Below are positions 12,599 through 31,783 of a DNA stretch of 52,952 nt, in pieces. Location: contig DYJF01000007.1 in NCBI GenBank assembly GCA_020723205.1, positions 1 through 52,952 on the forward strand, written 5' to 3'. Within the stretch, counting starts at the first letter, position 1. Each line of letters starts with the position of its first letter. The notes beneath the pieces are model-generated. The model was not told the origin of the DNA, made no database searches, and was given only the letters and a program-made list of their open reading frames with translations. Origin of the DNA: Bdellovibrio sp. (GTDB lineage Bacteria; UBA10199; 2-02-FULL-44-16; DYJF01). The translations under genes and the position numbers were made by a program.

Positions 12599-12767
12599 AA
12601 CGAACCTCCGTTCCAACACCCGACCGGCCCGTCCTCTATGCGTTTATGGCTAAAAAAGCAAGGATTTTAAATAGTTAGAATGGGAAGCAACTTCAGGGTA
12701 CCGCCCGGCCGATAATATATATGGAAGGGAACGCTCTATCTATCGGGAGGGATTCGGGTTTTCTTTT

Positions 12768-29265: not shown

Positions 29266-30225
29266 TTACAAGCTTCCTTGCTGCCGCTCTCGCTCCTGCA
29301 CGCGTATGAGCTGGCGCTCACCGTCAGGATCGTGACACGTCATGCTCGAGCTGCCGAAATCCCTGACCGTGAACGACGTATGCATATCGGTCGCAAGCTC
29401 TTCTGCGTTCTCCGACAGTATTCCGCCCGCACCCGAAACGACCGTGACATTTATCACAGTTGCCATCTCGTACCCGCCCGCCGGAGCGAACGTCACTTCA
29501 TATTCGCTGTACTGTGCGTCCTCCCATACAGACAGCGTTCCGTCGACCGGCGTGCCGTCGTCCTTTTCGATCTTGACCGTCGCGTTCGTTACGGTCGCGT
29601 CGTCAAGCGGCTTTGTGAAGACGATCTTCACCGGCCTGCACGGCGCCACATGGGGCTGTTCGTCATATGGTCTGATGAAAAGGACGGAGAACAACGCCGT
29701 GTCTATTACCCCCTCGTCGTCGCCGAATTCGTTGGGAATGCCGTCCGCGTCCGAATCCTGACCGTAGAAGGAATATATCCCGTCTCCGCCGAGACCTGCG
29801 ATATCATCAAGCATCGCCATTTCCATATTGCGCAGGCGCATCTGGCCCAAGTCAACGTCTTCGCCGTCCTCCACGGTCAAGGCCGTTATCCCGTTGAGCG
29901 CGAGATACCCCAATCGCTGCCCGTTCCCGTCGAGGAATCCGAACATCCAGTTGCCGTTCCTCACCCTGACCCTCCACCGGTTGTTCGCAGGATCGATCTC
30001 CCCCTCCTTTTGAGAACCATCGGAACCATATGCCGCGACCGCACACACATCGCCTATGCAGCCGCTTGCGCCGTAATCCTTAACTACCGATGCCGCGACT
30101 TCCGACTCGATCTCGCCCGTTATGAGACGCCCCTCGTCTTCCGTGGTCGTTGACGTAGACGAACCGCATGCAGCGACAAAGAACGTTACCGCCAGGACCA
30201 ACAATATTTTTGATATTTTCTTCAT
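29266..30225 (-). CDS. Lipoprotein with bacterial Ig-like (Big_5/SbsA-type) region
   Basis: MKKISKILLVLAVTFFVAACGSS lipobox; CRPVKIVFTKPLDDATVTNATVKIEKDDGTPVDGTLSV..YEVTFAPAGGYEMATVINVTVVSG. Confidence 0.8.
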   Translation of the reverse strand: MKKISKILLVLAVTFFVAACGSSTSTTTEDEGRLITGEIESEVAASVVKDYGASGCIGDVCAVAAYGSDGSQKEGEIDPANNRWRVRVRNGNWMFGFLDGNGQRLGYLALNGITALTVEDGEDVDLGQMRLRNMEMAMLDDIAGLGGDGIYSFYGQDSDADGIPNEFGDDEGVIDTALFSVLFIRPYDEQPHVAPCRPVKIVFTKPLDDATVTNATVKIEKDDGTPVDGTLSVWEDAQYSEYEVTFAPAGGYEMATVINVTVVSGAGGILSENAEELATDMHTSFTVRDFGSSSMTCHDPDGERQLIRVQERERQQGSL

Positions 30226-30352
30226 AACGCACCCCCTTGTTTTTTTATTGTTTGTTCTACTGCCGTTCCTTTTACCCCCTTTCCTTTCGGCTGCCTTACA
30301 CCACCATTATCCTCCGCGGCACACGCGGAGACACGCGAAATGACTCTGAAAT

Positions 30353-30369
30353 GTATTCATGATGAATAC
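30353..30369. promoter_or_regulatory. 17-bp palindrome GTATTCA-TGA-TGAATAC (operator candidate)
   Basis: Same 7-bp arms and 3-nt spacer as the palindrome at 31767-31783; lies between two lipoprotein genes. Confidence 0.75.
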
Positions 30370-30379
30370 GAGCGGGGAA

Positions 30380-30859
30380 TCAGTTCTGACCGTTACCCAT
30401 CTGTCTTCTGGGTTCGTTTTCAGGGATGAACTCGCCGTTGACATAGCGCACGAGGCCCAGATCTATCGGGTCGCCCGCCTCTATTACCTCAAGGCGGTCG
30501 GACCTGTTGCCGGCATCGTCCTGTTCGAAACTGAACGGGCCCACAACGTCATAGAGCATACGAACATCGAACGCGTACGATATTCCCGCCTCGATCTGGA
30601 TCGAAAAGCTCCCGTCGACATCAACAGCCGATTCCCTTGTTGTGGAACCGGACGCAGTTGCGACGACCGTGAGGATCGTAGGGTCCAGCGACTCGTTTGA
30701 AACGCTTTTGGTCTGGATGTTCGAGGTGTCTATCACGCCTTCGATGGTCTGAAGGGTAGGGATATCTCCAGTGGGATTTCCGACCTCGGTAGCATTGCCA
30801 CAGCCGAAGAGCGCCGCGGCTATCAGAATAATAACGGATCTTTTTAAGAGTATTTTCAC
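30380..30859 (-). CDS. Small lipoprotein
   Basis: GTG start at 30859 preceded by AGGAGG; VVKILLKRSVIILIAAALFGCGNATEVGNPTG signal/lipobox. Confidence 0.72.
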   Translation of the reverse strand: MKILLKRSVIILIAAALFGCGNATEVGNPTGDIPTLQTIEGVIDTSNIQTKSVSNESLDPTILTVVATASGSTTRESAVDVDGSFSIQIEAGISYAFDVRMLYDVVGPFSFEQDDAGNRSDRLEVIEAGDPIDLGLVRYVNGEFIPENEPRRQMGNGQN

Positions 30860-31695
30860 GACGCCCTCCTTTCCTGCGTCACGCGGAAGAGCTGGAGGTT
30901 CAGCTGATATACATGATCGTCCTCGACCTTCCCGCGCGACTCCAGATAGGAAAGGATCTGCCTTCTGCAATCGTTCAATATCTGCGCGATCTCCTGAACG
31001 TCCTCCCTCCTCAAGGCCATGGTGATCGCTGAAAAGTTCCTCTCGTCGGGCATCTGTGTTCTAAGCGCGTCAAGCGCCAAACGCATCATCTGGTCATGAT
31101 AGAAATATGATGCCGCTGCCTGCGTTTCAGGACCGGTGGTCACGATCGCATCCGCCTGTTTGAGACAGCCCCCCGCGTCCTCGGTCAGGAGTCCCATGCC
31201 TATCAGTTTGCCGATGGCGTCGTCGACATGGAGCGGAGAGACATTGTGGCCTATGGTCCTTGAAATAGTGCGTCTGTCGTTCCTGAACTGCTTCGTCGTG
31301 ACAAGTTCCCGGATGACGGGATAATACCACTTAATCAGATACTCATACTGGCTCTGTTTCAAATTATCCTTATATTTTTTGAAATAGTTAGCCATCTCGA
31401 CGACATAGTTCGCCTTGGCCTCAGGCGTGTCGGCCTGATTTAAGTTCACGAGGATCTCAAAATATCTCTTCTCCCTGCGATTGAGCTTGAGAACCTTCGT
31501 AAAAATCCCCATCGTCGCAGACGTGATATTGCGTTCACCGTTGACAACGAGCAGAAGCTGATTCGGGGATTTAAATCCCGCCCATTTTGAAAAGGTGCGG
31601 TACGAGAAACCCGGATGCACCTCTTTCATCCATCTATACCAGTCTTTGAGGTAACGCCTGAAATCCTCATACTGTAAAACGTCCGGGCGGTTCAT
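30856..31695 (-). CDS. TIGR02147-like regulatory protein
   Basis: YEDFRRYLKDWYRWMKEVHPGFSYRTFSKWAGFKSPNQLLLVVNGERNIT..; second ATG (31695) chosen because AAAGGGG is 8 nt upstream. Confidence 0.75.
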   Translation of the reverse strand: MNRPDVLQYEDFRRYLKDWYRWMKEVHPGFSYRTFSKWAGFKSPNQLLLVVNGERNITSATMGIFTKVLKLNRREKRYFEILVNLNQADTPEAKANYVVEMANYFKKYKDNLKQSQYEYLIKWYYPVIRELVTTKQFRNDRRTISRTIGHNVSPLHVDDAIGKLIGMGLLTEDAGGCLKQADAIVTTGPETQAAASYFYHDQMMRLALDALRTQMPDERNFSAITMALRREDVQEIAQILNDCRRQILSYLESRGKVEDDHVYQLNLQLFRVTQERRAS

Positions 31696-31704
31696 ATACA
31701 TGGC

Positions 31705-31734
31705 CCCTTTCGTCCATATTATCTCACGAAAGGG
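31705..31734 (-). promoter_or_regulatory. 5'-UTR hairpin overlapping the Shine-Dalgarno of the TIGR02147-like gene
   Basis: CCCTTTCGT-N12-ACGAAAGGG, perfect 9-bp arms. Confidence 0.7.
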
Positions 31735-31766
31735 CTTTTGGCCGTAAGCAAATAATGAATAAACTT

Positions 31767-31783
31767 GTATTCATTCTGAATAC
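31767..31783. promoter_or_regulatory. 17-bp palindrome GTATTCA-TTC-TGAATAC (operator candidate)
   Basis: Perfect 7-bp arms; an extra half-site GAATAC at 31787-31792. Confidence 0.78.

Follow-up and report, generated by a model that had tools for sequence, protein, structure and literature searches.

What is the function of a 17-bp palindrome, GTATTCA-N3-TGAATAC, that occurs twice around a gene of the TIGR02147 family and its neighbouring lipoprotein gene? Both copies lie in a 52,952-nucleotide stretch of DNA from Bdellovibrio sp. (contig DYJF01000007.1), hereafter the window. We consider it likely (probability about 0.84) that the TIGR02147 protein whose gene lies between the two copies uses the palindrome as its operator and regulates its own operon and a second lipoprotein gene, more probably as an autoactivator than as a repressor; this reading is computational and rests on no binding or expression data. 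The sites, the gene arrangement, the covariation between protein and half-site and the promoter geometry are shown by sequence. Binding of the regulator to the palindrome at its own promoter is an inference in which, even without binding data, we place high confidence, and control of both its own operon and the second lipoprotein gene is inferred as probable.

Two exact palindromes at a regulator/lipoprotein locus

On the minus strand, the order of the elements is operator 1, regulator, lipoprotein 1, operator 2 and lipoprotein 2, where 'operator' denotes the inferred role of the palindrome. The features are as follows.

31767..31783, no strand assigned: putative operator 1, GTATTCATTCTGAATAC, before the regulator operon; core GTATTC-N5-GAATAC; position in agreement with the operators of homologues
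31718..31723, minus strand: predicted -10 (GATAAT) of the regulator operon, 43 bp 3' of operator 1; an inference
30856..31701, minus strand: regulator gene, 281 aa, TIGR02147 family (TIGR02147, E 1.4e-66; PF14394, E 2.3e-32)
31549..31569, minus strand: codons for S45-P46-N47-Q48-L49-L50-L51, the specificity residues at the start of the recognition helix, from column scan, tree, clustering and model
30380..30859, minus strand: lipoprotein 1, 159 aa, N-terminus ...LFGCGNATEVGNP; its GTG start shares GTGA with the regulator stop
30353..30369, no strand assigned: putative operator 2, GTATTCATGATGAATAC, separating the lipoprotein 1 and lipoprotein 2 genes
30306..30311, minus strand: predicted -10 (GATAAT) of lipoprotein 2, 41 bp 3' of operator 2; inferred by analogy with homologues
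29266..30225, minus strand: gene for lipoprotein 2 (319 aa), which contains a Big_5 Ig-like domain; the other predicted target

Operator 2 is located shortly past the lipoprotein 1 stop (30380) and 128 bp 5' of the lipoprotein 2 start (30225). The arms of operator 1 reach 8 bp (TGTATTCA-TTC-TGAATACA); the core conserved among relatives is GTATTC-N5-GAATAC, without a general requirement for the seventh A/T pair. In the genome as a whole (1,745,931 bases in 85 contigs, 83% complete), we identified only these two exact copies of GTATTCA-N3-TGAATAC, with no near-copies at 1 mismatch and 4 at 2 mismatches. Because the chance expectation for an exact 14-base site in a genome of such size is about 0.007, two exact copies 1.4 kb apart around one gene are far beyond chance. 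The possibility that the palindromes are chance or duplicated intergenic sequence without function is all but excluded: both copies do lie within one locus, but their spacers and flanks are not alike, the arrangement recurs in unrelated genomes, and the enrichment is several hundred-fold. The preliminary description, made from the sequence alone, had reported two exact palindromes and no other full copy in the window; both statements held, the latter even when up to 3 mismatches were allowed. The genome-wide motif scan that it proposed was also favourable, the exact motif being confined to the regulator/lipoprotein locus.

The regulator and its family

The regulator matches TIGR02147 (Fsuc_second) over its full length at 224.7 bits (cut-off 50), meeting the criterion of a full-length match, and DUF4423 (PF14394) at 112.5 bits (cut-off 30), both far above the cut-offs. 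This family was first named from Fibrobacter and is so far defined by paralogy alone, with no known function. TIGR02147 was not found by name in the literature searched, and DUF4423 appeared there in a single table entry, for Bdellovibrio Bd3700, which is upregulated during growth within prey (PMC12546842). The family is nevertheless widespread, with 2 copies in the genome of the window and dozens in Fibrobacteres, and no function is assigned to it in the literature searched. What is new here, relative to the family as known, is DNA binding, an operator, a code and a partner, all computational, with the binding itself inferred; this provides the family with a predicted domain for DNA binding, together with an operator, a code relating residues to bases, a geometry for its promoters and typical targets (lipoproteins and secreted proteins), and makes it possible to predict the target genes of uncultivated bacteria from their sequence. 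The second TIGR02147 gene in the genome, located elsewhere, likewise overlaps a lipoprotein gene; the exact palindrome is absent at that gene.

The regulator is predicted to comprise an N-terminal lambda-repressor-like HTH (residues 14-89) and a DUF4423 domain (residues 111-274). AlphaFold predicts a five-helix HTH with high confidence (pLDDT 94.5), with the recognition helix at residues 48-53 and residues 45-47 at its start. Its likeness to the lambda-repressor-like/XRE proteins lambda cI, C.AhdI, C.BclI and HigA is at the level of predicted fold only: the best Foldseek matches of the HTH model were C-proteins, HigA and lambda cI, at probabilities of 0.9-0.99 but with E-values of 0.11 or above, which are not significant. 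No Pfam match was obtained for residues 1-95, even at E 1, and the criterion of a hit to a curated HTH profile was thus not met. Sequence searches found no relatives of solved structure, and a full-length fold search gave no significant match.

Lambda-repressor-like/XRE regulators also have a palindromic operator beside their own gene. The window regulator differs from them in its C-terminal domain and in an operator that lies upstream of the promoter instead of over it, and the likeness is qualified by the best E-value of 0.11 and by an HTH unseen by Pfam. Rgg/ComR-type regulators have an N-terminal XRE-type HTH and a large, mostly helical C-terminal domain, are autoregulatory and have an adjacent small gene. 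The window regulator has the same layout, its predicted N-terminal HTH being of comparable length and its C-terminal part likewise large and mostly helical, and it shares with them an inferred autoregulation and a small neighbouring gene; this neighbour, however, encodes a lipoprotein, not a pheromone.

Palindromes and lipoprotein genes at homologous loci

We sampled 47 genomes of the window's class (107.6 Mb), 38 of which contain TIGR02147 genes, and analysed the upstream regions of 122 TIGR02147/DUF4423 genes of this class, 115 of them with at least 250 bp of upstream sequence. Palindromes of the form GTnnnC-N4-6-GnnnAC recur upstream of these genes, mainly at -62 to -105 from the start codon. 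An exact 6-bp GT-arm palindrome is present at -125..-40 in 34 of the 122 genes, whereas 100 dinucleotide shuffles gave on average 0.59 such genes and never more than 3. Across the 47 genomes, 18 of 57 exact GTATTC-N4/5-GAATAC sites (expected 0.02) and 7 of 22 GTGTTC sites (expected 0.008) fall within 300 bp upstream of a TIGR02147 gene. About two thirds of the homologues have no exact palindrome under these criteria.

A lipobox ORF follows the TIGR02147 gene in 162 of the 225 cases with downstream sequence, the commonest junction being a 4-bp overlap of the ATGA type. Within 40 residues of the cysteine, a T/S-E-x-G-N-like motif is found in 85 of the 162 coupled ORFs but in only 5 of the 207 lipobox ORFs at other places in these loci. 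Lipoprotein 1 itself has no confident Pfam match. Exact operators located elsewhere than in front of a TIGR02147 gene are often followed by a gene for a lipoprotein or secreted protein that has the same promoter (L249, L250, twice in L252 and twice in L253), and in three loci (L100, L112 and L149) an exact operator precedes a second lipoprotein gene near the regulator, an arrangement like that of the window.

Several further observations concern the partners and their distribution. The conserved T-E-x-G-N-P segment near the lipid cysteine marks TIGR02147-coupled lipoproteins (85 homologous loci) and is rare in other lipoproteins of the same loci. One genome, G026 (L249-L255), has eleven exact GTATTC operators, several of them before secreted-protein or lipoprotein genes, and might possess a larger regulon. 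Three Fibrobacteres/Chitinispirillaceae genomes, G076, G078 and G081 (L213, L228, L241), contain 49 to 54 TIGR02147 genes each, many with a lipoprotein gene next downstream.

Covariation between the recognition helix and the half-site

An unbiased scan of about 270 alignment columns identified residues 46, 45 and 47 (Pro46, Ser45 and Asn47) as most informative for half-site base 3, and Leu51 as the best protein column for base 5. Among 70 non-redundant genes, Pro46-Asn47 is associated with AT at bases 3-4 (GTAT) in 30 of 30 cases, Ser-Asn at residues 46-47 with GT (GTGT) in 6 of 7, x-Gly with TT (GTTT) in 10 of 13, and Pro-Ser with AC in 3 of 6. The mutual information (MI) between the residue doublet 46-47 and bases 3-4 is 1.99 in these 70 genes (shuffle maximum 1.14), and 2.26 in the 23 genes left once sequences had been clustered at 40% identity outside the HTH (maximum 2.07 in 5,000 shuffles, p = 2e-4). 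Because the association survives this clustering, it is not a product of relatedness. On a tree built without the HTH, a change from Leu51 to Arg51 is paired twice with a change from GTATTC to GTATCC (L119/L078 and L081/L151), and in L050/L060 a change from Pro46 to Ser46 occurs together with GTATTC to GTGTTC; supported branches were too few for a tree-based independent-pairs test. The window regulator, with Ser-Pro-Asn-Gln and GTATTC, conforms to the rule, as does its relative L055 (65% identical).

Loci from other phyla, taken as a separate set, show the same trends: Pro-Asn-Tyr occurs with GTATAC (L177, L215), x-Gly-Phe with GTTTTC (L213, L219, L228), and Phe or Val at residue 51 with GTTTAC. 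The code has exceptions: L180 pairs Ser-Asn with GTAT, and GTTC occurs with helices of the Pro-Ala and Pro-Ser types. A simpler rule in which the pairing of Pro46 with A is the entire code was rejected, since it is not significant in the out-of-class set (p = 0.59) because the half-sites paired with Pro-Gly and Pro-Ala helices are GTTT and GTTC; the rule based on two residues performs better, and it alone is supported.

These data bear on the alternative that a different, global regulator of many envelope genes binds the palindrome and has the TIGR02147 gene as merely one of its targets. In favour of this alternative, some exact sites are not near any TIGR02147 gene, for example several before secreted-protein genes in G026. 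Against it, the half-site varies from gene to gene with the recognition helix of the neighbouring TIGR02147 protein, the two changing in parallel, and genomes without TIGR02147 are nearly free of sites (3 sites altogether in the nine such genomes of the class); we consider it very improbable. Under the preferred reading, that the TIGR02147 protein binds the palindrome beside its own gene, the criteria for an autoregulator (an operator upstream of its own gene, conserved in homologues, with specificity tied to the protein) are met computationally.

The preliminary description had suggested that TIGR02147 proteins are autoregulatory and control adjacent lipoproteins, and had proposed a comparison of the upstream regions of homologues. 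This comparison was favourable, the same class of palindrome being strongly enriched. Autoregulation is supported computationally, binding and regulatory sign remaining inferences, and lipoproteins are supported as targets in that they are the recurrent partner, their control being inferred. The covariation of the half-site with the recognition helix of the neighbouring regulator was not foreseen and supports the same reading.

Among paralogues, half-site and spacer are shared by 0 of 21 pairs within the class (null mean 2.7, P = 0.044), which is weak support for a distinct operator for each paralogue. Strict insulation of paralogues within a genome was rejected: the Fibrobacteres G081 paralogues L372, L383 and L384 all have GTTTAC-N4-GTAAAC.

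Promoter geometry and regulatory sign

Promoter positions were counted from the 3' end of the palindrome. Of 11 loci in a sigma70-like class, 9 have TTG at +18 and 8 have TAnnnT at +41; the second class is characterised by GCAAC at +18 and CGATAA at +40. Based on predicted start sites and -35/-10 elements, the operator centre would lie about 62 bp ahead of the inferred start in both classes. The class-I criterion of a site upstream of the -35 at a fixed helical phase is thus met, with the -35 at +18 and the -10 at +41 in two promoter classes. The predicted promoter of the window regulator has a -10 spacing of 43 bp, where most homologues have 41 bp, and a weak -35 (GCTTAC). Class-I activators such as CRP are positioned at -61.5. 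The present loci resemble CRP-like systems in that the operator is centred about 62 bp upstream of the inferred start and keeps a rigid spacing to the -35 and -10, but the fold of the TIGR02147 regulator differs, the starts are predicted and activation is undemonstrated.

Operators located upstream of the -35 at constant phase favour activation, because repressors usually overlap the promoter, and the fixed distance, with the centre about 62 bp before the inferred start, makes an activator the best-supported role; without expression data, our preference for activation over repression, inferred from the fixed operator-promoter spacing, is moderate. It remains possible that the same protein acts on the same operator as an autorepressor, exerting negative feedback. 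The HTH resembles HigA antitoxins, C-proteins and lambda cI, which are mostly repressors of their own promoters, and in a few loci the palindrome is closer to the start codon (-22 in L074, -47 in L071). Conversely, in both promoter classes most operators keep a rigid distance from the -35 and lie upstream of it, and do not cover the -10 or -35, the usual location for a repressor.

Under the favoured model of an activator, a dimer of the regulator would bind the palindrome via the N-terminal lambda-repressor-like HTH, and S45-P46-N47-Q48...L51 at the start of the recognition helix would recognise the inner bases of GTATTC. Bound at operator 1, the regulator would govern its own operon, which comprises the regulator gene and the translationally coupled gene for lipoprotein 1; bound at operator 2, it would govern lipoprotein 2. 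It would contact RNA polymerase from upstream, in class-I geometry, resulting in positive autoregulation, and the DUF4423 domain would presumably receive a signal, the identity of which is not known. A bolder reading, which we regard as unlikely, is that TIGR02147 proteins, of which Fibrobacteres relatives have up to 54 per genome, make up a large repertoire of self-activating regulator-lipoprotein modules, each with its own half-site and spacer specified by the recognition-helix code, in which the T-E-x-G-N-P segment of the lipoprotein reports the state of the envelope to the partner regulator.

The palindromes could also be RNA hairpins (attenuators, terminators or leader structures), given their perfectly complementary arms and loops of 3-6 bases. 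This alternative is very unlikely and was rejected on position and protein covariation: a hairpin in RNA gives no reason for the half-site to vary with protein residues, transcripts of one promoter class seem to be leaderless, and the palindromes would not be transcribed because they lie upstream of the predicted promoters.

In the sigma70-like class, the -10 stops six bases short of the start codon, which suggests leaderless mRNAs (L092, L098, L104, L119, L135, L150 and similar loci). The motif GCAACTT-N13-17-CGATAA is present in all 47 class genomes at about 8 to 96 copies per genome, compared with 0-2 for a reversed control, with an example in the window at 12687-12715 (plus strand); the motif resembles a FliA/sigma28-type promoter (GCCGATAA -10) with an unusual GCAAC -35.
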